NCBI GenBank assembly: GCA_000151295.1
Contig: GG745361.1
Span: 12,468 to 33,020, forward strand
Reading direction: 5' to 3'
Origin: Allomyces macrogynus ATCC 38327
Lineage: Eukaryota; Blastocladiomycota; Blastocladiomycetes; Blastocladiales; Blastocladiaceae
DNA: 20,553 nucleotides
In this document: positions 1 through 19,714 of the stretch, piece by piece
Numbering within the stretch: the stretch's first letter is position 1
Layout of the letters: every line of letters begins with the position of its first letter
Made by a program: the position numbers and the translations under genes
Notes under the pieces: generated by a model
Database searches by the model: none
Seen by the model: the letters and a program-made list of their open reading frames with translations, nothing else
What the model was told of the DNA's origin: nothing

Positions 1-1955
1 GCCAGATAATGGCCGCGAAGCATGAGCAGGCGGCGCACCAAGAAGCGTGGCAGGCGCCATGGGTGCTGTGGCCATGGCCATTCCAGCCGCGATTCCGGCC
101 GTAGCGGCAAGGCCCACGACCGGTGCACCGCTCGTGTTCGGATGCTTTGGCGGAGGCGGCGGAGCTGGAACGGGCATGGTCATGGACGCTGGAACCGTTG
201 CCGCGGGCGACCAGGGTGCAGAGGTCGACGGCGGCGGCGGGTACTGGGGTGCGGGAGCCGGCGGGTACGGCGGTGCGAGGGGTGGAGCTTGCTGGTACTG
301 CGGCAGCGTTGAAAACGGCTGCTGTTGTGGCTGCTGCGGGTGTTGTTGCATCTGCGGCGGGTACTGCGCCGCCGATGGCGGTGGCGGCGGTGGCGGGAAA
401 GTGCCGGCAACGGGCGCGACGGGCGCCATGGGCGGCGGTGACAGCGGCGCCGACTCGGGCACTGGCCGCGGCGTGCGGTTGGAGCGGATGCGATTGCGCA
501 TGACAAACAGCACGGCGGCTGCAGCCACCAAGACGCCGACCACGATGCCAACGATGGCGCCCGTGCCAAACGACGAGGACGACGGCATAGACGGATCATC
601 GGCACCCGGCGTGGTGGACGGCGTCGATGAGGTCCCACCCGACCGCGACGTGCTTGATGCGGTGCCCGTGACCCACTTGAACTGCAGCGACCCGTCGGTC
701 TGTGGCAAAATCTGTAGCAGGTTCAAAAACGACGCAAACGGACCCTCGGCAAGACCGAGATCGTTGGTCGTTTGGCGGCCGCCCACGTAGACAATCACAT
801 TGCCCTCGAGGTAGGCGCACCCGGTCACGAGCGACTTGGGCCCGTTCGACGGGTTGACAATGGTGCCCGCCTGCGACACGCTCAGCGACACGTCGAGGTA
901 CTCGATGAGCGTGTAGGGCGAGTTGGCCGAGAAGCCACCGATGTGAATGATGTAGCGATCGTCATAGAAGACGGTGCTGGAGAAGGCCGGGAGGTCAGTC
1001 GCGAGTTAGATGGCAAACAGGCAAGAGGGTGTGAGGAAGTGCGTACCGGTGTTGGTAGCGCGCGTGGTAGAGCGAGTAGTCGAGGCTGGTGAAGGTGCGC
1101 GAGCTTTCCTCGAGCAGCCACATGTCGTCGAGGAACTTGCCCGTGTCGACGAACCCGCCGCTGAGGTACAAGTGCGTCGAGTTGAGGCGACCCATAGACC
1201 CGAGCTGGCGCGCGGGCGGGCCCGACGACGTGATATTCGAGTTGGCGACGACGCCGCCGCTGTTCACGACGGCGAGCCAGCTAAGGTTGGTGATGTTGCC
1301 GAGCGCCACGCCGCCGTACAGGTAGAGCTTGGAGGAGCCGTCCGCAACGGCAGCCGACTGCTGAATGGTGTGCTTGAGCGCGAGGCTCAACGTTGTCGAC
1401 TGCGTGCTAGTCGAGCCCGCAGACGGATCAAAAACGTAGGTGGCCTTGTTGACGTCGGTGGCCGGGCTCGACGTGGTCGGCATGCGAATCCCACCGGCGA
1501 GGAAGACTTTGTTGTTGGACTGGACGAGCGCGACCTGGTTGATCATGCCGGCGAGCGACGAGTCGATGGCGCCGTGCGTCTTGAAGTCGGCAGCCGAGCC
1601 CGTGGAAATGGTCTTGTTGACGTCGATCGAGTAGACGCCATTGGCGAGCGAGGTCGACGTTGAACCCGAGTCTGTTCGTGACGAGAGGGGGCCGAAATAG
1701 GTCAGAAAGAGTTGTTCGCAGCGGCGGTCGACGGGTAATAAGACGCAGGTGGGCCGGACACGCACTGCCAGTGTAGCCGCCAAAGACGAACAAGCGCGAT
1801 CCAACGACGGCACAGGCACTGGCGGACGTGGCCTGCGAGGTGGTGATGGAAAATGAGGACGCGGCGTTGGTGGGCATTGGCGCTGCAGCGAGAAGGATGA
1901 CGATGGCCAGGCTCAGAGCCAGGCCGGCGCCGACCCACGAAGGTGACAACGGCAT
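1..1955 (-). CDS. Kelch-repeat type I membrane protein (copy 1), 3' end beyond window
   Basis: Likely a cell-surface protein with an extracellular kelch beta-propeller; the ligand is unknown. Exons are 1955-1766, 1671-1047 and 976-1, still open at the window edge (597 codons seen). The start at 1955 gives a signal peptide (hydrophobic stretch of about residues 11-25). Kelch-like strands follow, with motifs such as RLFVFGGY, KVFLAGG, LYLYGG and HLYLSGG. After a Ser/Thr/Pro-rich stalk comes one membrane span (GAIVGIVVGVLVAAAAVLFV), then a basic stop-transfer and a long Pro/Gln-rich cytoplasmic tail with QYPP and PYPP repeats. It is paralogous to the gene at 8035-10261, with introns at the same places and in the same phases (1 and 2). 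Its second intron is strikingly similar to that of the paralog. The exact family (attractin-like or another kelch group) cannot be fixed. The C-terminus is missing only because the window ends. Confidence 0.8.
977..1046 (-). repeat. Intron 2 of kelch copy 1, near-identical to intron 2 of kelch copy 2
   Basis: A 70-nt phase-2 intron with a gtacgc donor, a ctccag acceptor and a CTGAC branch-like site. Compared base by base with 9323-9392 it differs at 6 of 70 positions and has no gaps. Read through in frame, it encodes YALPHTLLPVCHLTRD followed by TGA. Confidence 0.85.
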
Positions 1956-2669
1956 GGCGGCAGCGCGGCCGTGGAGGCCGTGTGTTGGCGAAAAAGTCGT
2001 CGTGTCGTCGTCGGCGTCGTCGAGAGAGAGGCACGGCAAACGGTGCGGTACTTGTCGAGAGGTTGGCGACCACGGCAAGTAAACGTGCTTGCAAGTTGCC
2101 GCAGCGAGCAAGTCGAGGTGACGGCCGGCTGGTCGCTTGGCCGGCCGGATCGTGCGCGCAAGCAGACGGTGAGCAGAGAGCGGGTGGCCGGGGCGGCTGA
2201 GCAAAGGAGCGCGCAGGACGAGGGACGGACAGCCGCTTGCCCTGCTCGAGAAGGGTCGAGAAGAGAGAGGTCGCGCGTGCGGGCGAGCGTGAGGGGCGGG
2301 CGGGAGTGTGGGGCCAGGGCTGGCGGCCAGGTTGGCCGGTTGCCTGCGAGGCACGAGCGAAGCCGTGTGCGAAGCAGTCGACCAAAATGAGAGGCGCGAC
2401 CGCGCAGCCCAAACGCAGCATGAGCGTGCGCGCTGCACGAGGCGGCCGCTGCTTGTCGCACCGCCACGCGCAGCAGCCGGCGCGCACCAGGGGAAGGACG
2501 TGGCGTCACACTGCATCCGCGTCACTCTCCCCGCTCACTCAATGCTCAACCACCTTCCGTTCGCTCCACTCTGTCCCGTCCTGCTGACAGCCGACAGCCC
2601 GCAACAACCGCGACGCGACGCGCCTCCAATTCACGCCCGAGCGCCGCCCGCCGCCGTGAGCCGACAAGC
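1956..2669. promoter_or_regulatory. Divergent intergenic region, kelch copy 1 / GH16-like gene
   Basis: About 714 bp between two divergent starts. It should hold both promoters and 5' leaders. I see no convincing TATA box or repeat. The long open frames here on both strands are best explained by high GC content. Confidence 0.4.
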
Positions 2670-4181
2670 ATGGCCGCAACCACCGGCCTCGCTGCGGTCG
2701 TCGGCACTGCCTTCACATGCTGCACGCACGACAGCGCGCGCCAACTCGCGCCGGCGATCACCACAGGCACCGCACCCGACCGCGTCGGCGCTCCCACCTC
2801 GCGCGTCGACTGGGCCAAGGGCTACTTCCCGATCCCGCCAAAGCTCGCCAAACACACCAACGGCCTCGGCTTTGGCTACCTGGCCCTCAACGTTGTGCCT
2901 GTTGTCACGCTATCCAGGGGAACGCAGGTCGTCGTGGGAGGCCACCTCGAAGATCTTGCCACAGGCCATGTCCACGCTGCCTGGGGCCTGCCCGCTGCTG
3001 CCGACGCGTCGAGCGGACCATCGCCCATTGATTGCGTCGAGGTCGCCACCTTCTACACTTACCCGCGGTCGCGCGTCGAATATGCCGAGGGACCAGCAGC
3101 TCTGATCCCGGCTGCACTGCCCGCCCAAGTGGCCGTGCGCGTTGTCTTCCACTACGCAACCATCAACGACGCGGCGCACCGCAACGTCTGGGCCATTGAC
3201 GCGTTGCTCCACGCTGGTACTGTCGCATGGCCCGCCCAACCGAACAGCGCCGTGCCCGTGACTGGCGCGCGCGAGATCACGGTATTGCCGGACGTGCGCA
3301 CCTGGTCGACCCCACTCGCCGACCAAGTCGCCATGGACTTCAAGATGCGCGGGTGTGCCGTCGCCGTGCTCCCGTCGCCGCAAGTCATCCCCGACATGCC
3401 GATACGTGCCGATTTCGACGTTGCGCTGCACATGCGTGTGCACGCCGTCCTCGCGCACTGCGCTGGCTCCCAACCCGCCGCGATTGAAATGGCCGCGAAT
3501 CGCAGCGTCATCAACGACCAGTTTACTGGCCCGCACATCGAGCCGCACTGGACCGCTGCGACGCACACGTTCGAGGCCAACTTGGCCCAGTTCACGCCCA
3601 CCAACGCTGTCGTCAACCACGGCCTGCGCTTGCACGTCACCCCCTCGCGCCACGGCGGCAAGCCCTACACGGCCGCTGAGCTCCGCACCACCAACACGAT
3701 AGCACCGCCCACCCCCATCGTGCCCAGTACCCTGACGGCACTCGACATTGGCGCGCGCATGCGCGGCGCTCGCGCCTCGGGTCTCGTCTCAGCCGTGTTC
3801 CTCTACCGCGACCCGCCGCACATCCAGGAAGCCGACATTGTCGAGACACTCGGGTCGCGGCCGGGCCAGGTGCAGCTCAACCTGTTCCACACGCGCAAAG
3901 CCGTGGGCGACCGCAAGAACCACAAAGACCCGTACGTCGGTCCGCGCGAGCCGCCGAGCTACCCGATCTGGAAGCATATGCGCTTTGACCCGACGCTGCA
4001 CCACGACTACGCCGTGCACTGGGCCGCATGGACGCACGAAGCGTGTCCTGCTGGGCAAACATGCGGCCGCGCCATGTCTGGGTGCATCGATGGGCCCCCC
4101 GGTTCACGTCGTGTCGACGGCCCATTTTGCGGCCCGCGGTGGACTTCGAGACGGGGTCAAGGGTGGGCCCGTGCCGGATAG
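2670..4181 (+). CDS. GH16-like glycosidase (concanavalin A-like fold), C-terminal half not recognisable
   Basis: The start at 2670 has a good context (A at -3, G at +4) and a weak signal-peptide-like N-terminus (GLAAVVGTAFTCC). Residues of about 30-260 match no family I know. Residues of about 270-452 look like glycoside hydrolase family 16, whose members hydrolyse or transfer beta-glucan and related chains, often in fungal walls. Family features seen are NHGLRLHVTP, RMRGARASGLVSAVFLY, then EADIVETLG, the catalytic E-x-D-x-x-E at E387, D389 and E392 (about 3828-3845), and HHDYAVHW at 444-451. The strand and W-x-DG region expected right after this are absent. The frame instead runs through Cys/Gly/Arg-rich sequence to a stop at 4181. 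A different frame continues to 4476 and contains DSPTRLMLQCLGQ, weakly like the next GH16 strand. A frameshift, a missed intron or real decay are all possible. It is fairly secure as GH16-like but not secure at its 3' end. Confidence 0.6.
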   Translation: MAATTGLAAVVGTAFTCCTHDSARQLAPAITTGTAPDRVGAPTSRVDWAKGYFPIPPKLAKHTNGLGFGYLALNVVPVVTLSRGTQVVVGGHLEDLATGHVHAAWGLPAAADASSGPSPIDCVEVATFYTYPRSRVEYAEGPAALIPAALPAQVAVRVVFHYATINDAAHRNVWAIDALLHAGTVAWPAQPNSAVPVTGAREITVLPDVRTWSTPLADQVAMDFKMRGCAVAVLPSPQVIPDMPIRADFDVALHMRVHAVLAHCAGSQPAAIEMAANRSVINDQFTGPHIEPHWTAATHTFEANLAQFTPTNAVVNHGLRLHVTPSRHGGKPYTAAELRTTNTIAPPTPIVPSTLTALDIGARMRGARASGLVSAVFLYRDPPHIQEADIVETLGSRPGQVQLNLFHTRKAVGDRKNHKDPYVGPREPPSYPIWKHMRFDPTLHHDYAVHWAAWTHEACPAGQTCGRAMSGCIDGPPGSRRVDGPFCGPRWTSRRGQGWARAG

Positions 4182-4481
4182 CCCGACGCGGTTGATGCTT
4201 CAATGCCTGGGCCAAGCAGCACGGGAAGCTGCGGGGGGCCGGTGGTTCTCGACGAAAAAGTCATTTGCCGAGCATGCTGAGCATTGTCGGGTTCGAAGAA
4301 TATTGGGCGAGCCCGGCCCGACCCGCGGTGGCCAAGGAGGGGTTCCTCGGGCCGTTGACGCCAAGAACATTGCCCACGGCTGGAATACGCGCGCGGGGTG
4401 GGTCATGGAAAGACGTTTCATCTCGATTCCTGAGTCGCTCATGGGCGTTCAGCTTGGCATTTTACCCCGGAAATGAGTGTT

Positions 4482-5177
4482 TCTTTGATGCCGTGTCGAC
4501 ATTTGTTATGTAGCTTGTATCTTACCTTGTTTTTTCGAGTGTGATTTTGTTGGATCGGCTTTGGTCAGGGCAGGCGGAAGTGAGTGACGTGCCTCGTCCT
4601 ACATGTGTCGCGTCCACCCCGTTCCTGCCGGATCCCTCTGCTCTGCCCTCTCTCCCAGCCTTTGCAAATATTTTCGTCTCGCTGGCCTGTCCTCCCGGTA
4701 GCGGTTTAAAGACGAGGTTAAACATGAACGCTCGAAGTAGACACCAAGACAACAACAAGAACCCGAGCAACAACAAAGCAAGAGCAAAGAAGACAAACAA
4801 CGGCAGCTCTAAAAAGCAATCTCGGCATCACGATCGTATCGTGCTGACCGAGACCGACCCTGCCAAACTGAACTGGTGAGAAAAAGCATTGTGGGAAAGC
4901 TTGTCACACGCCCACACTTGGGCATGCAGACGACGACACCGACCACACAGCACCCAACTGACAAGAGAGGGGTAACCGCATGGATTGTCGAGAAAAAGAA
5001 GGAAGAAAATAAACCGGACACCGGCCAGGGAAAGAATGAAAAAGTCTCGGCACCCCTCCGAACTCGCACACGAGCGCGCACCGCGTCCCACCCGCGCACC
5101 CAACCAAGTCGCGATTCATTTCCCACAAATGAACCGAGACCACCTTGGGTCGGTAGAGCCGCCGCAACGCGCCCGTG
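4482..5177. other. Convergent intergenic region without a recognised gene
   Basis: Lower in GC than its surroundings, with purine-rich and CAA-rich stretches (about 4740-4810 and 4980-5045). It lies between two 3' ends and probably holds 3' UTRs. I found no tRNA-like or other RNA gene and no credible open frame. Confidence 0.4.
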
Positions 5178-5300
5178 TCATGCCGTTTTAAACTTGCGCC
5201 ACTCGGGCAACTCAACGTACTCGCCTGGCGGCGGCACCGTGTAGTTGAACCCCACGTCAGGCCAAACGGCATCGTCGATCCCCAGCCGGTCCGCGATTCA
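5178..5300 (-). other. In-frame TGA followed by a coding-like 39-codon continuation of the Vps3844 gene
   Basis: After TGA at 5300-5298 the same frame reads IADRLGIDDAVWPDVG, then FNYTVPPPGEYVELPEWRKF, and ends at a TGA at 5180-5178. Codon use (mostly G/C at third positions) and composition match the coding exons and suit a cytoplasmic tail after the membrane span. No GT..AG intron clearly removes the first TGA. It may be a base error (one change restores sense), a strain-specific truncation or readthrough. Confidence 0.55.
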
Positions 5301-6608
5301 ATCGATCCGCGACCCGCCGCCACTGTTGCCGTTGGCGGCACTCGCGACCATCATGATGGTGCCGGCCAGCATCGCAATGAACGCGATCGTGATGCCGCCA
5401 AACAGAGCCACCTCGGAGGAAATGTCGTCGTCGGCACACGACGCACCGGCGTACTTGCGGTACCCGGCCTTGGTGCACGTGCACTTCCAGCACGGGTGCG
5501 ACGCCGAGCCGCGGTTCATGCACGTGCCGTGCTGCGAGCACGAGTTGGTCGAGGACGAGCACGCCGACGCCGACGTGAAGCATGTCAGCTCGGTGAAGTT
5601 GGACGAGAGACGCGGCGCTGCAGCAGCGGCCGCGACCGGCGACGCTGATTGCGCGGTTGAGGCCGCGGTCGCGTCGGTCTGCTCGATCTTTCCGGCCGCC
5701 ACGGTGCCCGCCGAGTTCGGCGTGATGAGCGAGGTCGAGACGGTGGGCAGCGTTTGCGAAAGCTAATGAATGCGTGGTGAGCCCAAATTCGCAACTTTCC
5801 CTCAGTGATGCCGTACCTGCGAGATTAGGTCGCGAACCTTGGCGATTTGGTCCTGGTAGTCGTCGTCGTCCTGGTCGATGCCGTTGATGCGAATTGCGCC
5901 GAGTTTCGGGGTCTTGGACGACCATTGGCGGAGCTTGGCGAGCGCTTCTTCGAGATCCTGCACGGTGCCCGACGTTAGTACAGGTGATGACAGTGATCTT
6001 CTCGCGTGGAACGTGAGTAACGTACGTCGACGGCCACGTCCACCTCGTCAAAATCGGCTGCGTCCTCGGGGATGAAGTCGTCGTCGGCGTACTCGTCCAA
6101 GACGCGGTCCTTGACCGTGGAGACCAAGTTGGCGTCGAGGGGCAGGTCGTCCTGGACGTGGAACGTGGCATCGAAGCCGAGATCTGTCCAGGCAATGCGG
6201 GTAAGGAACGCGAACTTGGCCAAGCCAATGGAGACTGCGGTCGCTGCACGCACCCTCGTGGTTCACGCCCGGCGCGACGACGACAACGTGCTTGGTGGGC
6301 GCTTCGGGCGCAAACAGCGACGCCGTTGTGCTGCCACCGGCTGCAGCCGTCGCAGTACGCTCAAGGGCATCGGCGACGGGGCGATCGGCAAAGTTAGCGT
6401 TGCGCGAGCTGCCGACGAGGTAGGCGTAAATGTCGAGGGCCTGGTCACGGCTCAGTGCGGGTGCCGGCTGGTCGGGCTTGCGGGCAGCGGCATTCGGGTT
6501 GACGAAGACGGCGCTGGTCGACGTAGCATCGGCCGAGCACGCCAGCAGCGCGAGAAGCGCCACGGCGGCCACGAGCAGGCGCGTGCGGGTCAGGGTGCGA
6601 GCGGGCAT
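5298..6608 (-). CDS. Vps3844 (DUF3844) domain ER membrane protein
   Basis: This is a member of the fungal Vps3844 family, ER/secretory membrane proteins linked to vacuolar sorting. Exons are 6608-6254, 6183-6026, 5957-5817 and 5762-5298, joined in consistent phases (372 residues). Introns are 70, 68 and 54 nt; the second has a perfect TACTAAC branch site at 5980-5974. The start gives a clear signal peptide (LLVAAVALLALLACSADA). The lumenal part includes an ALSRDQALDIYAYLVG segment like the family N-terminus and the hydrophobic strand KHVVVVAPGV. Residues 279-327 form a Cys-rich EGF-like module (NSCSQHGTC, CWKCTC), followed directly by a membrane span at about 336-360, which is the diagnostic C-terminal layout. 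The frame stops at a TGA at 5300-5298, but the same frame stays open for another 39 codons of coding-like sequence to 5178. The gene is divergent from the Spo7-like gene 479 bp away. Confidence 0.85.
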
Positions 6609-7087
6609 GGATCGGGGCGGGTCCTGGCGGGTGAACGAGCGGACGAGGGCGTTGCAGCGGCGACACAGACGCGTTGCGCGTCGCAAGGCTTTTGCACGGG
6701 TTGCGAGTGGATGTTGCTGGCTGCAGCAAGTCTTTGCGACAGCAGCCGATGGCCGTGCACACGAGCAGAGCGTCGGCAGGCACGCGTGTCGCAACTAACA
6801 CGTGACCGCATCGAACAGCGGAACTTCGCTGCTGCTCTCTTGCGATATGAATATTCCAGTTGCTCGGTATGCCGACCCCCGACAGCACCAGAACCGGCTC
6901 ACGTCGCGCTCCACGGTCCTCCCACTTGCGGCATTCGGTGCCCGACGCTGACCAGCCAACTTGTCGTCGAAAAAACCGCCTTTCAGCTTGCTCCAGACCC
7001 AGTTTCCATCCTACCAAACCACATTTCAGTCCCACCCTGCACGTCAATCGTCTTGACTCAACAGCCCCTCGGCGCCTCCCCACGACC
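6609..7087. promoter_or_regulatory. Divergent promoter region, Vps3844 gene / Spo7-like gene
   Basis: The 479 bp between the two start codons must contain both promoters and leaders. I see no clear TATA box. The stretch before the Spo7-like start is pyrimidine- and C-rich on the plus strand, as is common in fungal leaders. Confidence 0.45.
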
Positions 7088-7783
7088 ATGGACCCCCGTC
7101 ATTCTTCGGTCGACCGGCCGCTCTACGCCAGCGCCGTCGCGCCGCCAGGAATCCCGCCGCAGGAGCACACGCCGCCGTCCTCGTCGCCACGCGACTTGGC
7201 CGTCTTCGAAGAGCGGCTGCGATCCAACCTGACTTATTTCCGCCGCCGCCGCCGAAAGTATCGCCGTACGCTCGCTATCGCCATGCATTCTTGCACCTGC
7301 GCCCGTCCCAGCCTGTAACGCGGTGCGACCATCTGCTCGCGCCGTTAGTGCTCCAACTTGCGCTCTTCATCGGCGTGTGCCTCGGCTTCCACGGCGGATT
7401 CATGGTCGACGACCACCGCTGGATATACTACCTACGCGTGCTCTTCCTCGCCTGCGTGATTGGCCTCTTTACCGTGCACCTCGGCGCCGACTACCAGCGC
7501 ACTGTCGATCAGGCGCGCATGTGCGTCTCGTCGCCTCGGTTCTTTGAGCGATGTGCGGACCCCATGGACTCATTTTCGTCCTCGGAAACGGTGCAGGTTT
7601 TCGCCGCGCGTCAACCGTGTCCTCCACTCGTTCAACATTGCCTTCAACCGGCCCGGTCGCGGCCCAGAACTCTCCTTTTCCAACCGCGTGCCCGCAGAGA
7701 TCGTCTCGCATTTCGACTTGGCACGCCAGGGCATTCAGCGCAGCTTGGCACGACTGTACGCCGGCAAACCCAAACGCAAATGA
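7088..7783 (+). CDS. SPO7: Spo7 / CNEP1R1 (TMEM188)-like regulatory subunit of the nuclear-envelope phosphatase
   Basis: In yeast and animals, Spo7/CNEP1R1 binds the Nem1/CNEP1 phosphatase at the nuclear envelope and ER. The complex dephosphorylates lipin and so controls phospholipid versus triacylglycerol synthesis and nuclear membrane growth. Exons are 7088-7265, 7349-7520 and 7597-7783, phases agreeing throughout (178 residues). Intron 1 (83 nt) has a CTGTAAC branch site; intron 2 is 76 nt. The family layout is complete. A disordered Pro/Ser N-terminus is followed by LAVFEERLRSNLTYF with a basic RRRRRKYR run at 52-59. Two membrane spans follow at about 60-77 and 86-106, then a C-terminal block with RVNRVLHSFNIAFN, NRVPAEIV and a basic tail. 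The size fits animal CNEP1R1 and the core of Spo7. The assignment rests on this order and on the N-R-x-L-x-x-F-N motif. Confidence 0.85.
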
Positions 7784-8034
7784 TCCCATTCTTCGCCTTG
7801 ATCGGTACGCTGGTGTGGGTGCTTCTTGTCCATAGTCATTTAATCTGTACTCTGTTTCGATCGACATGGACTGGTGATAGCTCTATCGTTCGAGAATGGG
7901 ATCCGAGAAACAAAACGGCCGAAATAGCACGTCTATTTGAAATTATCAAAACACTCGAACAAAACAAGACAAAATTGCCATTTCTGCGGCAAAAACAAAC
8001 AAGAACACAACCGAGACCCAAACGCACGTCTAAA

Positions 8035-10261
8035 TCACGCCAGGTACAGCGTCTCTTGATTCGCTGGCTGGGCCGGCCGGCCAGCAGGGCGAGCGGGGCC
8101 CGTTGGCAAATAAATGGGACCTTCTTCGACCTGGCCCGCGGGCTGCGCTTTCGGTGGAGAAGACGCGAGCTGCGGCGACGTGCTCGGCGCCGTCGTCGCT
8201 ACAGGACCAGTCGCGACAGATGGCATTGCGACGGGCGTGACCGTCGGCACAGTCGTGGGCGGATACGCGGCCATCATCGACGGACCGGGCGGTAGGCCAG
8301 ACGTCGGAAGTGGACCGGACGTTGGCGGATACGGGCTCGAGCTCGCCGTCGGCATGGTCGTGGTCGTCGGGTACGGGCTCCCCATCGTCGGCATGGTCGT
8401 GGGCGGATAAGGCGAGGCCACGGTGGGCGGGTACGACGGCGGTGGAGACATGGTGGGCGGGTAAGCCGGTGGGTACGGCGCGGTCCCATTCGACGACGGC
8501 AACGACGGGAACGAAGGACCGGGGACCCACCCGGCGGTTGGCTGGCTCGTGCTCGTCGCTGTCGAGTACATGCTGAGCCGATGGTCGTTGAGCGTCCCGG
8601 CCGGCTGCTGCGGCATGGGCTGCTGCGGCATGGCCCCAGTCGGCTGCGGCGACATGGTTGCCGCCGGCGGTGGGTAGGTCGGCGCCATCATCGATCCACC
8701 CGTCATGGCGACCGCCACGGGCGTCATGGTCGGCGGCGTGGTCGCGGCCGGAGGAGGGGGCGGCGGCGGGGGAGCCGGTGTCAACAAGGGCTTCTTGACG
8801 CGGTTGTGGCACCAGGCGAGGATGCGGTGACGGGTGAAAATCAGGATCAGAACAGCGACGGCGAGCACACCGAGCGTGGCGCCAGCCACCGTGCCAGAAG
8901 AAAATGACAGCGGCCCCAACTGCACATCGGAGCTACTGCCGCCGCTTGTTGACCCGCCCGTCGTAGAAGACGTGGAGTTCGATCCCGACCCCGACGACGT
9001 TGACGACGAGCCCGTGACCCATTGGAACGAGAGCGACCCGGGCTTGACCTCGTTGACGGCGAGCATGCTCATAAACGGTGCGGCGCTCTCATTGTCGTCG
9101 CCGCTCGTCGTCGTCGTGAGCCCGCCGAGATACGCGATCGTGTTGTCGACAATTGCGGCGCACCCACCCGTTAGGCTCGTGGGCCCACTCGACGGGTTCG
9201 AGATCGTGCCGGCGACAGGAATCGACGACCCGGCCGTATCAATGTACTCGACGAGCGTGTAGGGCTTGGCGACCTGGTACCCGCCAATGTGAATCACGTA
9301 GCGATCTTTAAAGTAAACCGTGCTGGAGAAAGCCGAGAGGTCAGTCGCGAGTTCGACGGCAAACAGGCAGGAGGGTGTGAGGAAGAGCGTACCGGTGCTG
9401 GTACCGCCCGTGGTAGAGCTTGATTCCAACTTTGGTCCAGGTGGCTGTTGCGTCATCGAGCGTCCACACGTCGTCGAGAAACGACCCGTCAGAGTTGAAC
9501 CCGCCTGAGAGAAGGTGGTGCGTCGAGTTGTAGCGCGACATGGACGCCAAGCGGCGCGGCGACGGACCCGACGTGGAATTGGTGTTGGCCGCGACGCCCT
9601 GCTCGGTAATCGTCTCGAGCCAGTTCAGGTCCTTGGTCTTGCCCGATGACGTGTCAGTGCCGCCGTACAGGAACATGGCGAGCTTCTTGGGCGAGTCGCC
9701 GGCGCTTACGGTCGTGCCGGGGACAGAATGCTTGTACCCGACAGGCACGTCAAACGACATGCGCTTCGTGCTGCCCGAGCTCGGGTCAAACTGGTACATG
9801 ACCTTGTTGGCAAAGTCGTCTTCGGACGTCTTGTTGAGCACCACGAGGCCGCCGGCAATGTACACTTTTTGGTTGACGACGAGCGTTGCCGGATTGATGA
9901 CGCCGGCAATGCTCGAGTTCATGGTCCCGTGCGTCGTTAAGCCCGTCGCGCGGCCCGCAGCGACCGTCTTGATGAGGTCCACCGAGTAGGCGCCATTAAC
10001 GTAGTCGACAAACTTGGTGGTGCCCGTGTCTACGCGAATAGAAATGTCGCGGCGAAAGGGTCAGCCGTTGATAAAGACGCAGAGACGCCGCTGCATCAGT
10101 TCAAATCAAAACGTACTCGCCAAGTACCCAAAAAACGAGTAAATCCGCGACCCAACAATGGCGCAGGCACCGCCCGACGTGGATTGCGACGTGGTCATGG
10201 TGAACGCCGCCATGGCGACGGGTACGAGGGCGAGAACAGCGACCAGGCGAGCCAGCGCCAT
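8035..10261 (-). CDS. Kelch-repeat type I membrane protein (copy 2)
   Basis: Complete paralog of the gene at the left edge, in the same orientation about 8 kb away. Exons are 10261-10117, 10029-9393 and 9322-8035 (689 residues from the chosen start). The start at 10261 gives a compact signal peptide (MALARLVAVLALVPVAMA); in-frame ATGs at 10300, 10348 and 10351 would lengthen its n-region. Kelch-like strands include KVYIAGG, MFLYGG, HLLSGG, YVIHIGGY and TIAYLGG. A Ser/Gly/Thr-rich stalk leads to one membrane span (AGATLGVLAVAVLILIF), a basic stop-transfer, then about 250 residues of Pro/Thr/Ser-rich tail. The tail has YPPT-type repeats and two PPxY motifs (PPAY, PPSY), known ligands of WW domains. 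Intron 1 (87 nt) does not resemble that of copy 1; intron 2 (70 nt) is nearly identical. The role is probably surface recognition or adhesion; the ligand is unknown. Confidence 0.85.
9323..9392 (-). repeat. Intron 2 of kelch copy 2, near-identical to intron 2 of kelch copy 1
   Basis: A 70-nt phase-2 intron matching 977-1046 at 64 of 70 positions without gaps. Read through, it encodes YALPHTLLPVCRRTRD followed by TGA. In the read-through frame, two of the four differences before the stop are silent and two change residues. Confidence 0.85.
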
Positions 10262-11242
10262 GGGGCCGTCGAGAAACCGCGACCGCGACCGGTTGGTCAT
10301 CGTGGTCCGCCGCCGGTCAGGGACTTGCATGAACGGTGAGTTCGGCATCATCGTTGCCTGCAGGACAGCGGCACGTCGATGGATGCGTGCCGGCCGCTGG
10401 TCGCGCGTCGAGACCGGGTGGACAGCGTCGGAAGAAATGGCGCGGCGACAGAAACGGGCAAACAGGCCCGGGCAACGTCTATCTCGCCCAAAGCTTGGGT
10501 TGGGGGCGCAGCGCCTATTTATCCCGCACACGGTATGCACTTGATGAGTCGAAGGCTGATGGTGGCGCTCCTGGAAAGAATCCGGGCGGGCAGAGCGCAA
10601 GATAGGCTCGAGGAAAGCACTTACGATGGCGAGGTCGACCAATGCAGACTCGTTTGCTTGAAGTACCGAGGATGGAGAGAAGCGAGGACGAATCGTTACC
10701 AGAGCGGACGGTTGCAGCGGGTTTGCAGAGGTTGAAGCGGTTACAGCGCTGACGAGTCCCGCCGCCAGCTTGTTCGTCGGCAACTTCAAAGTTGGGGATG
10801 GACAGGACAGTCTGAATCTCCATTTGCCGTCGAGCTTTGGGTCTTGCACGACAATGTTCGCTTGGTTGGAGGGACCGCCGAGGCGGAAGACTGCCTGGGA
10901 TGTGAACGCAGTGGCGAGAATGTGGCGTACTGCACATGCGCGCCCTCCCGCCATGTGCGAGAATAGGGGAATAAAAAATCATTGCTTCCGCGAACACGAC
11001 GAGAGCAATCTGGAATGTCGCGCCAAACGAGTCACTTGCTCTACTCTCAACCCAAAGGCGCGACCGAAGCATACAGGGGCCGCTGGCCGTGCGGGTGACG
11101 ACTTCCGCGAAAAATCGACATTAATCTATGTTCGCCGGCTCCATGACAAGTTGTCAAGGCCATCTCTCGACCGACAGCTTCCCCGTTACAAGCTGAAAAC
11201 TATACAAACTGAAACTTGTTGGTGAAACACGATCAATCGCCT
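10262..11242. other. Intergenic region upstream of kelch copy 2
   Basis: About 980 bp between the kelch copy 2 start and the thioesterase 3' end; both genes are on the minus strand. It should contain the kelch promoter and leader and the thioesterase 3' region. A minus-strand frame runs open into the kelch gene from about 10954, but its translation has no recognisable domain and lies upstream of a signal peptide, so I treat it as non-coding. Confidence 0.4.
10516..10522 (-). promoter_or_regulatory. Possible TATA box for kelch copy 2
   Basis: ATAAATA on the minus strand inside a GC-rich setting, about 255 bp upstream of the chosen start. If used, the transcript would contain the upstream in-frame ATGs, so the start choice would need a 5' end map. 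Confidence 0.3.
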
Positions 11243-12108
11243 TCACTCCTCGACCGGCATCCTTTGAATCCCGCGCACAAACTTGGTGTGACTACCACGA
11301 ACCGCGAGCGTTTCGTGGTCATGGCCGTCACGGAGCGTCGCAATCTCGACGCGCGTAAACGCGAGCGTCTTGCCGACCTTTTCAGCGAAGCCGCGAATCA
11401 CGAGCTGCTCGCCCGGCTTGGGCGCGGCGAGGTAGGACACTTGAATGTCGGTCGACACGCCCGTCGACTCGAGCCCCGCAGCAGCAATGGCGAGCGATCC
11501 TGATACCACAGGGTGGAAAGTCAGGGGCCATGAGAAGCATCGGAAAATAGCAAAGAACAGGCTTCGAAGTGACTTGCGCTAATGACAAGAAGAGCACGTA
11601 CCAACAATGTCCACCAATGTCGCGCTCACGCCGCCATGGAGAGTACCGGTCAAGTTCTAGTCATTTCAAAACGCGGTCAGTTTTCAATTGCGTCGCAAAG
11701 CCAGAGCTGCAACGGGCGCGACGCGTCCTTGGCCGCAAAAGTGGTGTTGGCAAGAAACGGACCAAGTGGCTGTGTTCAACAGGCATGGTGCACTTGACCA
11801 CGCCAGGTCGCTCGATTTCTTCGACCGAGAGCTGTATGATTTCCAGGTCAGCGTGATGGGTGGGTGGGTCAGGTACTATCAGTCATATTCTTGGAACGTC
11901 AAGCGCATCATCGGCCATTTGAGCTTGCTCATTCGAGCTGCTTGCCAACATGGCAACGCTTGCAGTCGTTTGCGACCCTTGCTGTTCACGCGCAGCCTCG
12001 GCGGCCCACCTTTTCCAAGATGAGCGTGTCGAATCGATTCTGCTTCACACATTGGCTCAGGACGGTGCGCGCGTTGCGCAGGGCAGCGACGCGGGTGATG
12101 GCGTGCAT
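11243..12108 (-). CDS. Hotdog-fold acyl-CoA thioesterase, ACOT13/THEM2-like
   Basis: Predicted to hydrolyse acyl-CoA thioesters to free fatty acid and CoA; the animal homologue ACOT13 is largely mitochondria-associated. Exons are 12108-12010, 11831-11763, 11656-11602 and 11499-11243, with matching phases (159 residues, close to the animal enzyme's usual length). Introns are 178, 106 and 102 nt, longer than elsewhere here. Key features are NLTGTLHGG at 57-65 and ATLVD ending at D72. The spacing from N57 to HGG and to D72 equals that of the catalytic Asn, HGG motif and Asp of human ACOT13. Later parts also fit the family: STDIQVSYLAAPKPGE, GKTLAFTRVEI and GSHTKFV. The start at 12108 has A at -3, and an in-frame TGA lies upstream before any other ATG. 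The N-terminus (MHAITRVAALRNAR) is basic and could act as a weak mitochondrial leader. The gene is divergent from the sorting nexin gene. Confidence 0.88.
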
Positions 12109-12512
12109 GGTCGTCTGAACTGTTGCAGCAAGTCGCGCTGGGTGGGCGGTGGGTGCAAGTCGAGCGTGTTGGCCAGCCAGGCGGAATGGCTTCAGTGTCG
12201 GCGTGCCGCGAAGCCGCCCGCGCAGGAGCAATCATCGTGGATGATGCGCCGAGTGTTGGCTGGCCTTGCGATCCGACCGCGCCGGACCACGTGGGGCGGA
12301 TCGGGGCGGGTCGGCTAGTTGCCCCAGGGCAGCTGCTCTGGTGACGATCTGGTGCCACGACGTCGCCCCCCGCTCCTCCGCACCCGCACCGCGCTGCAGT
12401 CCAGCTCCATTCTGCACTTCCCCCGACACAACTGCGACGGCCACGATCAGGCACGACAACGACGACAACGCGCGCCCGCAACTGCCCCGCACCGCACCTG
12501 CCGGAAAGCACC
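12109..12512. promoter_or_regulatory. Divergent promoter region, thioesterase / sorting nexin
   Basis: The 404 bp between two divergent start codons is very GC-rich, without a visible TATA box. The part before the sorting nexin start is C-rich, as expected of a leader. Confidence 0.4.
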
Positions 12513-14586
12513 ATGGAGGCCATCGCGATCCCCGAGCTGGCGCCGCGCCATCACACCGACCACGCGAACCCCGGCCGCCACGTCGCCGAACACGCCGCTC
12601 ATGCACCCGCAACGACCAACCAAACGACACCTGTTACAGCAGCTGCAACCGCCGACAATGCCGTGCGCGAATCACGGCCAGACTCGTCGTTGAGCCAAGG
12701 TCCCTCGGACCCGGACTTGTCGACGGCGAGCGCGTCGTGGGCCGCCGACGGTGCACCACCACCACCGGGCGACCCGACCCTCCAGACCGATCCCAATGTC
12801 GTGCACGCGCCGGATCCGCGGTTCATGGAGGCAACCGTTACGCTGCCATGCTGTTCCGTAGCGACAGTGCTTGATGCATTACGGCACGATCTGATCACGG
12901 CGGGCGAGCCCTACTCGGGCCGCCTCGTGCGCATCCTCGACGCGCAAAAGGTCACAGACGGGGCCGGGTTCGCCTTCACGGCCTACCTCATTCGCTATGG
13001 GGTACGCTTCCACCTCGGCCGCGCCCGAGTCGTGTGCGACCTCTGTTGACCACGTTCTGGCGCGCCAATGAAACAGGACACGGAAATCCGCCGTCGCTAC
13101 TCGGACTTCTACTCGCTGCGCAAGTGCCTGCTGCGAATGTACCCGGCGCTCCTGATCCCGCCGATTCCGGAAAAGCACTCGTTTGCCAACTATGCCACGC
13201 AGCCGGCCAGCGCAAAAGACGACCCTGTCATCATTGCGCGCCGCCAGCGTCGGCTGCAGGGGTTTCTCAATCGGCTCGCCTGGCACCCGACGCTCGGCGC
13301 CGACCATCTCGTGCACGGGTTCCTCAGCGCGACAGTCTCGTGGAACGACACGCTGCGGTCCGCCAAGGTCACGACCATGCCTTCGTCGCCGTCCAAGTCG
13401 TCCAAATCGGCTCACGCGTCCACGTCCGCACCGGCTGCCGCATTGGCAAGACCACGCACACTCATGCCACTGGACAATGCCCACCAGCTGCGACCGGACC
13501 CGCGGTTCGTGGACGTGCAGGTCTTTACGGACAAGTTTGCGCACCAAATCGCGTCGGTTGCTCGGCACCACGGCCGTCTCGTTCGGCGATACGTGGAGCT
13601 GCACCGCGAGTATGCCGAACTCGCGTCCGTTTACTGCACCTTGTCGCTCGAAGACGATGCGGCACCGGCCGTGGCCGCGGCCATGGAGCGCATCGGGCTC
13701 GCGCTCGATACCATGACGGCGACCACGCTGCAGCTGTCACACCAGCTCGATGAGAAGGTGGACGAGTCGCTGTTCGAGTACGGGCAGTACGCTCACGACA
13801 TCAAGGTGCGCACGCTCCGTTTCTCCTTGCGCGAAACGGACAGTAGTTTCACCCTCCCCTCTCGATCTAGACGATCTTGAAATTCCACCATGAGCAGTAC
13901 TCTGCCCTCTCGCACGCGGCCGCAGCGCTCCAAAACAAGCGCGCACAACTCGAACAACTCGAACGCGCCGACGAGGCCGCCAACCGGATTGCCGCGGCCC
14001 TCTCCACCCCCGAAGACTCGGCACCGCTCTCGCCGACCCCGACTCGCGCCCTTTCCCCCACGCGCGACGGCGCCGTCCCGCTCCCGTCCGCGGTCGACCA
14101 ACCACCACCGCCTTCCCCCGCACCACCACCTCGTGGCCTGCTGGGCACGCTCTCGGCGCTTCTGGCGGCGCTACTCGGACAGCGCGACTCGCCGACGACG
14201 GCACGGGTACACCAACTCGCGCAGGCGCGAGAGCTGTTGGCGCAGCTCGAAGACCAGACGGGTGCACGGGCGCACGAGGCGCAGCACGCGTCACACACGA
14301 TCTTGCTGGAGCTGAACTGGTTCCAGCGGCAAAAAGTGCGCGACTTGAAGGCGTTGCTCGTGCACATGGCGACGATTCACGCGCAGTATGCGCGAAAGGT
14401 ACGCATCCAAGTCGCCGCGCATTCGGCAAACGGGGTGTCTGGTGGATAGCTCACGCGAGCGAGCTGCGATTGTAGAACTTGGCCGTATGGAAGCACGCCA
14501 AGGACGAGATTTGCAAAATACCCTTGCCTGACCAGGAGGATCAGGACCAGAACCAGAAAAATAAGCTAAACCAGGACGATTCGTGA
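12513..14586 (+). CDS. PX-BAR sorting nexin, Atg20/Snx41-like
   Basis: Such proteins bind PI3P through the PX domain and curve endosomal or pre-autophagosomal membranes through a BAR domain, usually as heterodimers with Snx4/Atg24. Exons are 12513-13001, 13077-13805, 13871-14398 and 14476-14586 (618 residues). Introns are 75, 65 and 77 nt, all phase 0. Residues 1-130 are disordered. The PX domain spans about 138-242, with RRRYSDF at 168-174 (phosphoinositide-binding Arg and Tyr), IPPIPEKH at 190-197 and a basic RRQRRLQ at 218-224. The BAR-like helical region starts near 300, continues with ILKFHHEQYSALSH and NKRAQLEQLER, and ends with QYARKNLAVWKHAKDEI. About 70 Pro/Ser-rich residues plus a hydrophobic helix interrupt the BAR domain. 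The acceptor at 13870 was preferred because it keeps the helix preceding the KRAQLEQLER motif; the last exon restores the family's terminal helix. Atg20 and Snx41 cannot be told apart here. Confidence 0.85.
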
Positions 14587-14714
14587 TCTCATCATTTGAT
14601 TTCCGTTTTGAATCCGTTCAGCGGTTTTGCTCAGGACAGCTCAAACAACAACAAATGAGCCATTTGGGAGTCGCAAATTGATGTTCATTTAAGTCCCGAG
14701 TTCTTCCACATCTT

Positions 14715-17319
14715 TCACACAAGCACATTCACGAGAGACTCCTTGCTCGACGTGGCCACGGTCGCTTCCGACGCGCATCTCGCCGTTGTGGCCGTAACGT
14801 CGTCGCGTTTGTCTTCCGCAGGCGGTCCCGGATCGGCCTGAGTACGTCGCATCCACGAGCGTCGAACCAGGAACGCACCGCCGGCGAGAATCAGGATCGC
14901 GACAACGGATAGGATAACGATCACGACAACGTCTACATGTTCCGAAAAAAATTCGGTGAGTAAAGAGACGAACGGCCGCCGATCTGAGCTTGGGCAACGT
15001 ACTACCGGGTTGAGTGGCCCAACTTGTGGTCGGATCCCGTCGCACCGCGGAACCCGACTTGTCGGTGCAGATGCCATGGACGCATAATCCTCCTGGTCGA
15101 CAAACCCAGTCAGATAATCGGTCGCTGACCCAGGAACGAAGATCTCGCGTACCATTGCACGGCGTCCCATCCAGAAACGACCCACCGAGTTGCGCACACC
15201 CGTTCCCCGCGCCGTTCGTACATGCGATGGCGCACGAGTCGGACGATCCGCACGCGCTCGTCGCTCCGCGTAGCCGGCACTGGTGGTCCCGGCTCGTGCA
15301 CACGCCTGACGCACACTGGCCGACTGTCGCGTTCGATGTGCACGCGGCGCCGTTGGGCAGCCGCACGTCGGCGGGGCAGTCGCGACCGACACCGTCGCAC
15401 GTTTCGACTGGGTCGCATGCCGCGTCCATGGACGGGCGACACGTCACGGTGCGGCTGGCGACATGGCACGCGTCGGTGCAGCACCCATGGTTGGTCGGAT
15501 TGCACTGCGCGGTTGTGCGGAGCCGACACGTCGTCGGGTCGCAACAGGTGGTGCAGGTTGCAGCAAATGGTGTCGTTCCACAATCGCATTCCTCGCCCGC
15601 GTCGACGATGCCGTTGCCGCACGTCGCGACTTGGACGGGTTGTGCGGGTCGATCGGCGAAACAAGGCGGGTTGCGAGCTTGCGCCGCACGCACGGTTTGG
15701 CAAACGGCGTGGACCGAGCATGTCGAAAAGTCTGGGCAACCAGGGACAGTGCCGTCAGAATCGAAAGACGGTGACGGGGTCGAGGATGAGAAGCAACGAA
15801 CCCTGGCTCGCGCCGTTGCCGATTGCCGTCATCAAAAACTTGTTCTGGCACGAGCAGCTGGACGTGCACGGGCAGCACGCCGACGTCGAAGTGCTCGACG
15901 ACCCGTGGCATGTCCTATCGTCACAGTCGTGGATGGCACCAAAGACGTGGCCTAGGATGAGCAGAAACGTCATGTTGCGGTTCAAACTACCACAAACGGA
16001 TGCAGGACGACGAACCGAGTTCATGCGCCATGGTTTGCCACTCTTGTCCCGACGCGGCGAGCGACGAGACAGAGACGCCAACGGCACGCGCGAGCGCCGG
16101 ATCAGCCCCATCCACCTGGTCAAAGCCAGCACCCGTTTGGCACAGCGTCGCGTACCACGCTAACCCGACCGTGGCTCCTTCACTTGGCTCGGTGAGTGAT
16201 GCGACTTGCCAGCCAATGAATGCCGAAAGGAATCAAAGAGTACCTGCAACGCGTAAACAAGTGCCACGCGGCGACGCCGTCATTCGAATGACCCATACGC
16301 CATTGACCAAACGCTTGCAGCCGCGATTCGAGCGTCTCGTTGAGAGAACACCCGCGGTTCCATTCAGCCGTCCCGCAGCGCGGAGGGATCTCGACGCGGG
16401 CCACGACGAGCTCGATGTTAAACGCGGTCTTGTACGCCTGACTGACGCGATTGGCGACAGAGAGAATGCGCGCGAGTGCCACTGCGGGACCACCTGCGGC
16501 ATCGACGTATGTGCAATCGGCCGCTAGGCCAATGGTGGCGCGGACCAGGCCTATGCTGCAAGTCGTCATGTCGGCGGGGTCGAGCGCAACCGGGATCGGG
16601 TTGACAGGAAACGGCGAGCGGCGAGCGAGGTGGTGGGGTGGAGAGAAGAGCGACGAGAAGCGCGCTCGTGGATCTTGCGTGCAAAAGTGGACGGGCGAGC
16701 TCGTGTCGGGTGCCGACAGATCACGAGAGGGAATCGACCTTGGATGGAAATGCACACGAATCGCGACGACATGGCGCGCGTCCTCGACAACCGTCAGCCT
16801 GGTCAAGTTTACGGAAGAGAATGAGAACAGTTCAAATCCCACACCATGAACGTCCCCACACGCAAGCAACGGGGCACTCCCCAAGAACCTTTACCGAACA
16901 ACAGAATTGTCTTGCGGCCAGAGCACCCGGTCGGCGAGCCTCTTCCCATCCGCGTCCCGCACGCCATCATGGTCGTGACGCACCCGCAACACCCATTCGC
17001 GGCTGGCCACCTCCAAATGCACGAGTTCCCCACTCGGATCATGAACAGGCACCATGGCACGCGCATGGCCCTCCAAACAAACGCCCGGCATGAATCGCAG
17101 CAGCGGATTTTCTGCGTCGTTGTGCGTTTGCACAGGTTGAAGTGTGGCGGGAACCACCGTCAAGATTGTCCGCGGGTCAAGATCATCGTTGACGTCGTTG
17201 ACAAGAATAACTGCCGGAACTGCTCGACTGACGCTGTGCGAATCGGCTGCGACAATGTTCTGGTTGATGCACTGGCTTTGCAAGGAGTGGCCGGTCGTGA
17301 TCGGTGATTGAAGAGGCAT
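14715..17319 (-). CDS. ADAM (disintegrin and metalloprotease) membrane protein; first exon not placed
   Basis: A zinc protease of the reprolysin/ADAM family (M12B), expected at the cell surface or in the secretory path. Fungal members are known, including fission yeast Mde10, needed for normal spore envelopes. Exons are 17319-16895, 16798-16244, 16182-16016, 15951-15802, 15731-15153, 15092-15003 and 14932-14715 (727 residues, phases all agree). Introns are 96, 61, 64, 70, 60 and 70 nt. Residues of about 1-180 look like the propeptide. The protease domain runs from about AADCTYVDAAGG to FSTCS, with the full zinc site HELGHVFGAIHD at 380-391, split by an intron. A Cys-rich disintegrin region begins at CGNGIVDAGEECDCG (from about 470), followed by a Cys-rich/EGF-like end (GGLCVHGICTD). 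One membrane span (657-679) and a 48-residue tail close the protein. No signal peptide follows the ATG at 17319. An upstream exon ending before a TGCTAAC branch site (about 17600-17400) is likely, but its frame is ambiguous. Confidence 0.85.
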
Positions 17320-18262: not shown

Positions 18263-19714
18263 ATGTCCAGCATCCTCGCCCAAACCGCGACCCGCCGTGC
18301 CCCGCGTGCCGTTGGTCAAGCGACGCGCCGTACTGCCGCTGCTGCACGCTACCATGCTTCCACTGGCGCGCGTGCCTCGCGCTCCAAGCTCGCCGCGTCC
18401 GGCGCTTCGGGCGCTGCCGCCGTGGCCGGTGCTCTCTGGTGGTGGTCTACTTCGACCTCGTCGCTCGTGGAGAATCTGGTACGGCTTGGGGCCATGTTGA
18501 ACGCGTCGCGATTCGACGAATGGTGTCACTGATCACCCATCTTGACGACGCGTCGCCAGATCCCCGCCGCCGAGTGCAAAGCCGGACCGATCAAGGTCGC
18601 CACCGACGCCGTCGACCTGCGCCCGCTCGGCCTCGATTTTGCGCACCGCGGCAACACCACCTTCAAGAGCCCCGTAATCATGGACACGAGCAAGCCCATG
18701 GGCGAGCGCATGGCCGCCTATGTCAAGGAGCTGCAAAACGAGATTGTCGGCGCGCTCGAGGAGCTCGAGCAGGCCGAGGCGCCGAGCTGCAAGGGCGCAA
18801 AGTTTGAGCGCGACGCATGGACCCGCACCGACGGCAACGGCGGCGGCATGTCGTGCGTGCTCGCCGGTGGTCGCGTCTTTGAAAAGGCCGGCGTCATGGT
18901 CACGGTCATGGAGAGTAAAATGTCGCCCGCAGGAGTCGCGCAGATGCGCGCTCGTGGCCGCGACTTCGGCGATATCCCCAAAGACGCGCACGTTCCCTTC
19001 TTTGCGGCGGGTATCTCGATTGTCATCCACCCAAACAACCCGCACGCGCCGACGGCGCACATGAACTACCGCTACTTTGAAGTGCGCGACCCGAAGTCGA
19101 ACAAGCCCGTGGCCTGGTGGTTTGGCGGCGGTGCCGACTTGACGCCGACGTTCCTCGATGCGAACGACGCCGCGCACTTCCATGCGCAGCTCAAGGCCCC
19201 TTGCGACCGGTCGCTCGGCAAGCACGCCTACCCGGCGCTCAAGGAATGGTGCGACGAGTACTTTTACCTGCCGCACCGCAAGGAGACGCGCGGCGTGGGT
19301 GGCATCTTCTTTGACGATCTCGACACGGACTCGCCGCACGCGCCCAAGGGCGCAACCAAGGAACAGCTGTTTGCGTTTGTCCGCGACGCCGGTCGTGCGT
19401 TTGTGCCTGCCTACGCACCGACCGTCGCGAGGCACATGCGCCAGCCCTACACGGCCGCCGAAAAGCGGTGGCAGCAACTGCGTCGTGGTCGCTACGTCGA
19501 GTTCAACCTGGTGCTCGACCGCGGGACCAAGTTTGGGCTCATGACGCCCAACGCACGCATCGAGTCGATTCTCGTGTCGCTGCCAGAGACGGCGCGGTGG
19601 GAAGAACTGCCAACACGCCCGTGGCCGGGTCGGCCCGAAGGCGCGCATTCCTCGACGTGGCTTCAAGACGCCGCGCGAATTGGCTTGAACGTGGGCATTG
19701 GGTGCCGCCCGTGA
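18263..19714 (+). CDS. HEM13: Oxygen-dependent coproporphyrinogen III oxidase
   Basis: Haem biosynthesis: oxidative decarboxylation of coproporphyrinogen III to protoporphyrinogen IX using O2. Exons are 18263-18478 and 18560-19714, with one 81-nt phase-0 intron (456 residues as read). Exon 1 encodes a leader rich in Arg, Ala and Ser with no acidic residue over about 60 positions, then a hydrophobic patch (GAAAVAGALWWW). This fits mitochondrial import with intermembrane-space sorting as in animals, unlike cytosolic yeast Hem13. Exon 2 is the complete catalytic domain. The family signature K-x-W-C-x2-(F/Y/H)3-L-x-H-R-x-E-x-R-G-x-G-G-x-F-F-D-D starts at K300 and matches fully. WWFGGGADLTP, GRYVEFNL, DRGTKFGL and ESILVSLPETARWE are also present. 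After ARWE the reading frame departs from the family; the expected last ~25 residues appear in pieces in other frames. Confidence 0.95.
19602..19688 (+). other. HEM13: CPOX C-terminal codons scattered over three frames
   Basis: Directly after ARWE, family-like pieces occur in order but in different frames: NTPVAGS, then PEGA in the annotated frame, then AFLDV, then FKTPRELA with a TGA at 19686-19688. Coproporphyrinogen oxidases usually end in a segment like (E)xLDVLKTPRDWV, so these look like one C-terminus broken by a few single-base indels. Confidence 0.55.

Follow-up and report, generated by a model that had tools for sequence, protein, structure and literature searches.

An intron shared by two tandem kelch genes of Allomyces macrogynus and its probable transfer by short ectopic gene conversion

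Where tandem duplicates undergo ordinary gene conversion, neighbors are locally more similar than their general divergence. Intron transfer is a named and rare mechanism in which an intron newly acquired by one paralog reaches another through recombination (PMC3443670), and it has been described as occurring via gene conversion (PMC3296678). Table 1 of the first of these sources, a review of 2012, lists three unambiguous transfer events, in Mycosphaerella, Aspergillus, and Chironomus, and the review also refers to transfer between paralogous globin genes of Chironomus (Hankeln et al., 1997, as cited in PMC3443670). Fungal introner-like elements, as presented in two further sources, are likewise recently gained, near-identical introns within one genome (PMC4457414, PMC9860276). 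The coding sequence of Allomyces macrogynus has been listed with 1.30 introns per kb, and the accessible part of the same source holds no introner report for this species (PMC8476143). The intron described below resembles the Chironomus-type transfer in that recombination would have moved it to the matching place of another paralog, but its host is a blastocladiomycete fungus, the earlier cases being compared here as cited (PMC3443670).

The window analyzed here is a stretch of 20,553 nucleotides on contig C42, on which two kelch genes, K1 and K2, lie as tandem paralogs on a common strand at a spacing of 8.3 kb. The products of both contain kelch repeats, a hydrophobic stretch, and a proline-rich tail, and each gene has two introns in the stretch examined. 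Their counterparts, K1' and K2', are found in a collinear region on contig C56 and are called homeologs throughout, a status that here means collinearity. The features on which the argument turns are the following.

1..1955, minus strand: kelch gene K1 (AMAG_14032), with its start codon at 1955 and its 3' end beyond the left edge of the window
8035..10300, minus strand: kelch gene K2, encoding 702 aa after splicing, in the same orientation as K1
977..1046, minus strand: intron 2 of K1, 70 nt (GTACGC...CTCCAG), phase 2, with the branch-like motifs CTAAC and CTGAC
9323..9392, minus strand: intron 2 of K2, 70 nt, matching the K1 intron in position and phase, with the CTGAC motif kept
1672..1765, minus strand: intron 1 of K1, used as a control, 94 nt, 68/82 identical to intron 1 of K1'
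10030..10116, minus strand: intron 1 of K2, used as a control, 87 nt, 64/82 identical to intron 1 of K2'
969..1057, minus strand: largest possible transferred tract in K1, made up of 11 nt of exon 2, the intron, and 8 nt of exon 3
9315..9403, minus strand: largest possible transferred tract in K2, bounded as in K1

K1 agrees with the deposited AMAG_14032 at 587 of 594 residues, the mismatch falling at the C-terminus, and K1' is identical to AMAG_11171 (668/668 residues); a deposited A. macrogynus model of K2 was not among the protein matches. AMAG_14032 ends in NCQLAVPLL; the 3' part of K1 at window positions 1-60 continues, like K1', in an open frame, and the C-terminal end of the AMAG_14032 gene model looks doubtful. 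Intron 2 has GT..AG boundaries in both genes and its removal keeps the reading frame, giving HR/TVFYDD in K1 and HR/TVYFKD in K2, where the stroke marks the junction. AMAG_14032 reads HRTVFYDD over this junction, that is, intron 2 of K1 is annotated as spliced, and frame and annotation together indicate that intron 2 would be spliced out. Toward the other end of the window, at 18542-19714, lies a coproporphyrinogen oxidase whose closest relative is A. macrogynus AMAG_12388 (93%).

Intron 2 is far more alike between K1 and K2 than are the genes themselves. The two copies are identical at 64 of 70 positions without a gap and have GT, CTGAC, and AG in common; the initial annotation had reported this identity and the length of 70 nt for each copy, and the ungapped alignment confirms both. 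Of the neighboring exons, also compared without gaps, the exon-3 side gave the 51/70 previously counted, whereas the exon-2 side gave 45/70 in place of the 41/65 claimed. The first introns (94 and 87 nt), said not to align between K1 and K2, indeed reach a global alignment score of only 1.0, as against 58.0 for intron 2. A comparison of the intron with synonymous sites had been proposed and was carried out: dS between K1 and K2 is 0.77 (Nei-Gojobori, 366 codons), and intron 2 is far less diverged than the synonymous sites, with 6/70 differences versus about 133/277 (Fisher P = 2e-10). That one copy is an assembly artefact is unlikely in view of these six differences and the separate loci.

The C56 region is collinear with window positions 4-16071 in five main BLASTN pieces of 80-89% DNA identity, and outside these positions the window found no match in the C56 stretch compared. 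K1' and K2' lie 8 kb apart there in the same orientation. K1' is uninterrupted at the intron 2 site, for BLASTN of the window breaks at 979/1049, where the intron sits, and the alignment of K1 with K1' contains a 70-nt gap between flanks matching at 49/60 and 56/60. Exon length around the site is unchanged between the two genes and, because K1' reads through it, K1 presents a clean 70-nt insertion. One base upstream from the phase 2 position in K2, K2' carries a phase 1 intron of 77 nt (C56:950249-950325; GTGCGT...AACAG). Its alignment with intron 2 of K1 and K2 stood out little from shuffled sequences (global P 0.43-0.51, local P 0.06-0.10, the best local stretch lying around CTAAC), homology with them, although possible, is not accepted, and BLASTN of the K2' intron in the genome found itself only; it may be read as an independent gain or a replacement at the same codon. 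Across about 28 kb of aligned homeologous DNA, the K1 intron was the sole gap of 35-300 nt recognized as an intron, the gaps not being checked singly; for this reason, and because many gaps come from non-aligning stretches, the survey yields no rate of intron gain. In homeologous DNA of two other contig stretches, about 5.5 kb on C47 (~442532-448016) could not be aligned with the corresponding 1.1 kb or so on C42 (~223038-224168), possibly through insertion of a mobile element on C47.

Intron 2 of K1 and K2 differs by 0.091, which compares with a homeolog dS of 0.231 (K1) and 0.257 (K2) and with homeolog intron-1 distances of 0.194 and 0.260. Tested against homeolog synonymous sites, the difference gave Fisher P = 0.024 and 0.011, and against pooled homeolog first introns a borderline P = 0.052, values of the moderate significance that six differences in 70 nt afford. 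As the intron divergence is below homeolog synonymous divergence, the sharing of the intron by K1 and K2 looks younger than the homeolog split. The extent of the exchange can be read from a four-gene codon alignment, in which 341 columns have the orthologous pattern (K1=K1', K2=K2'); since the nearest of these stand at -12 and +8, the exchanged stretch measures at most 89 nt. Four columns unite K1 and K2 against K1' and K2' (-681, +4, +165, and +237), and a single one (+6) is common to K1' and K2' only. Over the first 7 nt of exon 3, a stretch picked after the alignment had been seen, the homeologs differ at 3/7 (P = 0.008) and 4/7 (P = 0.002) when set against the background rate; K1 and K2 differ there at 2/7, as do K1' and K2'. 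This pattern fits an exon-3 stub carried along with the intron. At the second codon of exon 3, K1' and K2' share TTG (Leu), and 13 of 20 other kelch matches, judged by eye, have Val as in K1 and K2, so that part of the exchange may belong to the C56 lineage; an event there could stand in place of one in the C42 lineage or have occurred alongside it.

When its own genome was searched with K1, 29 matches were obtained, five of which (L003, L004, L006, L008, and L028) belong to K1, K1', K2, and K2'. An intron at the site is found in none of the 20 informative matches among the remaining 24; in the other four (L010, L025, L030, and L031) the site is missing or cannot be judged. Independent intact loci number fewer than 20, since L022 and L024 represent a single locus that entered the count twice and seems frameshifted, L019 and L020 read alike, and L029 contains a short gap (a few residues). 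L019 (C40:81550-82149, plus strand) and L020 (C40:102628-103161, minus strand) lie about 20 kb apart in opposite orientation and are alike around the site, for which an inverted duplication of recent date or an artefactual duplicate in the assembly may account. Contig C49 has many kelch matches, and one of them, L010 (C49:129074-129676), seems to be a decayed gene, with stops in the matching stretch and sequence deleted over the RYQHR region. Phylogenetic analysis placed K1/K1' and K2/K2' in separate clades, with an unresolved fork that also involves a clade of other kelch genes, and set A. arbusculus GGF31_005428 beside K2' (support 93/89). Among the protein relatives of K1', the A. arbusculus match is a K2 ortholog and the A. 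javanicus match a different paralog, and no K1 ortholog from another species was found among these protein matches (4 and 3 proteins). The separate clades imply an old K1-K2 split, from which an intron still 91% identical could not credibly have been inherited.

Any history that we can construct needs a recent exchange between K1 and K2 in the C42 lineage. We consider it quite probable that short ectopic gene conversion copied a young intron 2 between the two genes after the homeolog split. Gene conversion, one of three candidates put forward in the initial annotation, is the one that draws support, from a tract of at most 89 nt, an intron divergence below homeolog dS, and homeologs without the intron, while constraint and an introner-like origin fall away. 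We infer conversion as the copying route, and the intron itself is probably new at the site; its absence from K1' and from 20/20 informative paralogs makes copying likelier than mere homogenization. Under this mechanism, intron 2 would have been a young spliceosomal intron present at first in one paralog, and a break or gap in the other would have been repaired with the intron-bearing paralog as template, pairing taking place at the similar exon stretch around RYQHR. The copied stretch of at most 89 nt would have held the whole 70-nt intron with no more than 11 nt of exon 2 and 8 nt of exon 3, and templated repair at the RYQHR stretch would explain why position and phase of the intron agree to the nucleotide between the two genes. 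Were K1 the donor, K2 may have swapped a K2'-like intron for that of K1; were K2 the donor, K1 would have gained its intron outright. Against gene conversion stands the 64-73% identity of the K1 and K2 exons beside the intron, which is low for homologous recombination, although in the last 27 nt of exon 2 as many as 24 agree by eye.

The other histories differ chiefly in what they ask of the homeologs. Constraint, whether for regulated splicing or for an embedded RNA, had been offered as one explanation of the likeness, and it fails because intron 2 is absent from K1' and an unrelated intron occupies K2'. An Rfam search of window positions 850-1200 gave a single match, outside the K1 intron and at 16.2 bits compared with a gathering score of 40; an embedded RNA in intron 2 of K1 was rejected, nothing having come near the Rfam threshold. 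Alternatively, the intron may predate the split, having been lost from K1', replaced or diverged beyond recognition in K2', and homogenized between K1 and K2 by conversion. K2' does carry an intron one base away, a one-base slide of an intron is possible, a control pair of homeologous introns on C61 and C58 is visibly but poorly conserved, and the TTG codon of K1' and K2' just past the site hints at exchange in the C56 lineage. We nevertheless regard an old intron as unlikely, because the site is empty in K1' and in all 20 informative kelch matches, because homeologous first introns align at 78-83% and intron 2 of K2 and K2' does not, and because even this history requires post-split conversion between K1 and K2. 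Transposition of the intron, by reverse splicing into the other kelch transcript at the homologous junction followed by reverse transcription and cDNA recombination, would account for a transferred stretch that is almost exactly the intron, for insertion at the same nucleotide, and for an exon length equal to that of K1'. A bare intron would not, however, carry the first 7 nt of exon 3, which switch affinity too, and intron 1 is kept in K1, K1', K2, and K2' with no sign of cDNA recombination there, so that this route appears very unlikely. A related and rather improbable conjecture makes a hot spot of intron gain out of the Arg codon in the kelch motif (RYQH-R): two or more unrelated introns would have appeared there, no further than a single base apart, in the two homeologous lineages, and one of them would then have homed into the paralogous site, copied by the spliceosome through reverse splicing instead of by passive repair.

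An introner-like element, in the form of one mobile intron inserted twice independently, is scarcely conceivable, though it too had been among the candidates proposed. Genome-wide BLASTN, the check suggested for it, recovered two loci for intron 2 of K1 in 54 Mb, namely the query and its K2 counterpart (E = 3.0e-21), with no third match. A similar search with intron 1 of K1 served as sensitivity control and found the homeolog, 66 of 94 nt aligning at 78% identity, so copies diverged to that degree would probably have shown. Both matches occupy the same nucleotide, within one codon of two paralogs, and on this count an introner family is rejected. What speaks for it is an intron of an unrelated gene, C61:950306-950377, whose first 16 nt are exactly those at the start of intron 2 of K2 and near whose end CGACTGAC is likewise found; compared with shuffles, its alignment gave P = 0.002 (K1) and 0.008 (K2), for a sequence picked by a genome scan. 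BLASTN of the C61 intron found itself only, and the homeologous intron on C58, at the corresponding position, begins differently at its 5' end, by which the resemblance is best read as probably chance and shared splice motifs. Pattern scans of the genome, set against reversed-pattern controls and with K1 and K2 included throughout, returned 4 matches versus 1 and 5 versus 5; a pattern built after the C61 intron had been seen gave 3 versus 0, and a further one 43 versus 18, an excess that would be unsurprising given its splice-site-like start. Target-site duplication on insertion is a trait of some introner families only. A CCAGCACCG-like repeat does flank the intron, but removal of one copy leaves the exon 5 nt shorter, against the length in K1', and a target-site duplication was rejected; CACCG occurs on both sides of the intron and also in tandem, as CACCGCACTG, in the intronless L009. 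Unlike the fungal introner-like elements as described, no dispersed copies were found here, and the two copies share a single homologous position in the paralogs (PMC4457414, PMC9860276).

Transfer by gene conversion thus remains the preferred reading, and the K1/K2 case would add a further example to a rare mechanism that already has a name. What is unusual about it, also beside the Chironomus-type transfer as cited (PMC3443670), is the very short tract of at most 89 nt, the control within the same genome, where the homeologous gene set shows an intronless K1 site, and the unrelated second intron one base away in the homeolog of K2. With ordinary conversion of tandem duplicates the case has in common a local similarity of neighbors above their general divergence; it differs in that the tract is practically the intron, and in that conversion here probably created one, at least if K1 was the recipient. 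Likeness of an intron between paralogs does not necessarily mean functional constraint. The spread of new introns is a question of long standing, and unequivocal transfers between paralogs were few when counted in the 2012 review, three being listed in its Table 1 (PMC3443670). Because one genome holds two copies of the intron together with homeologs that lack it or carry a different one, the event can be dated here and its ends can be read to within about 20 bases.
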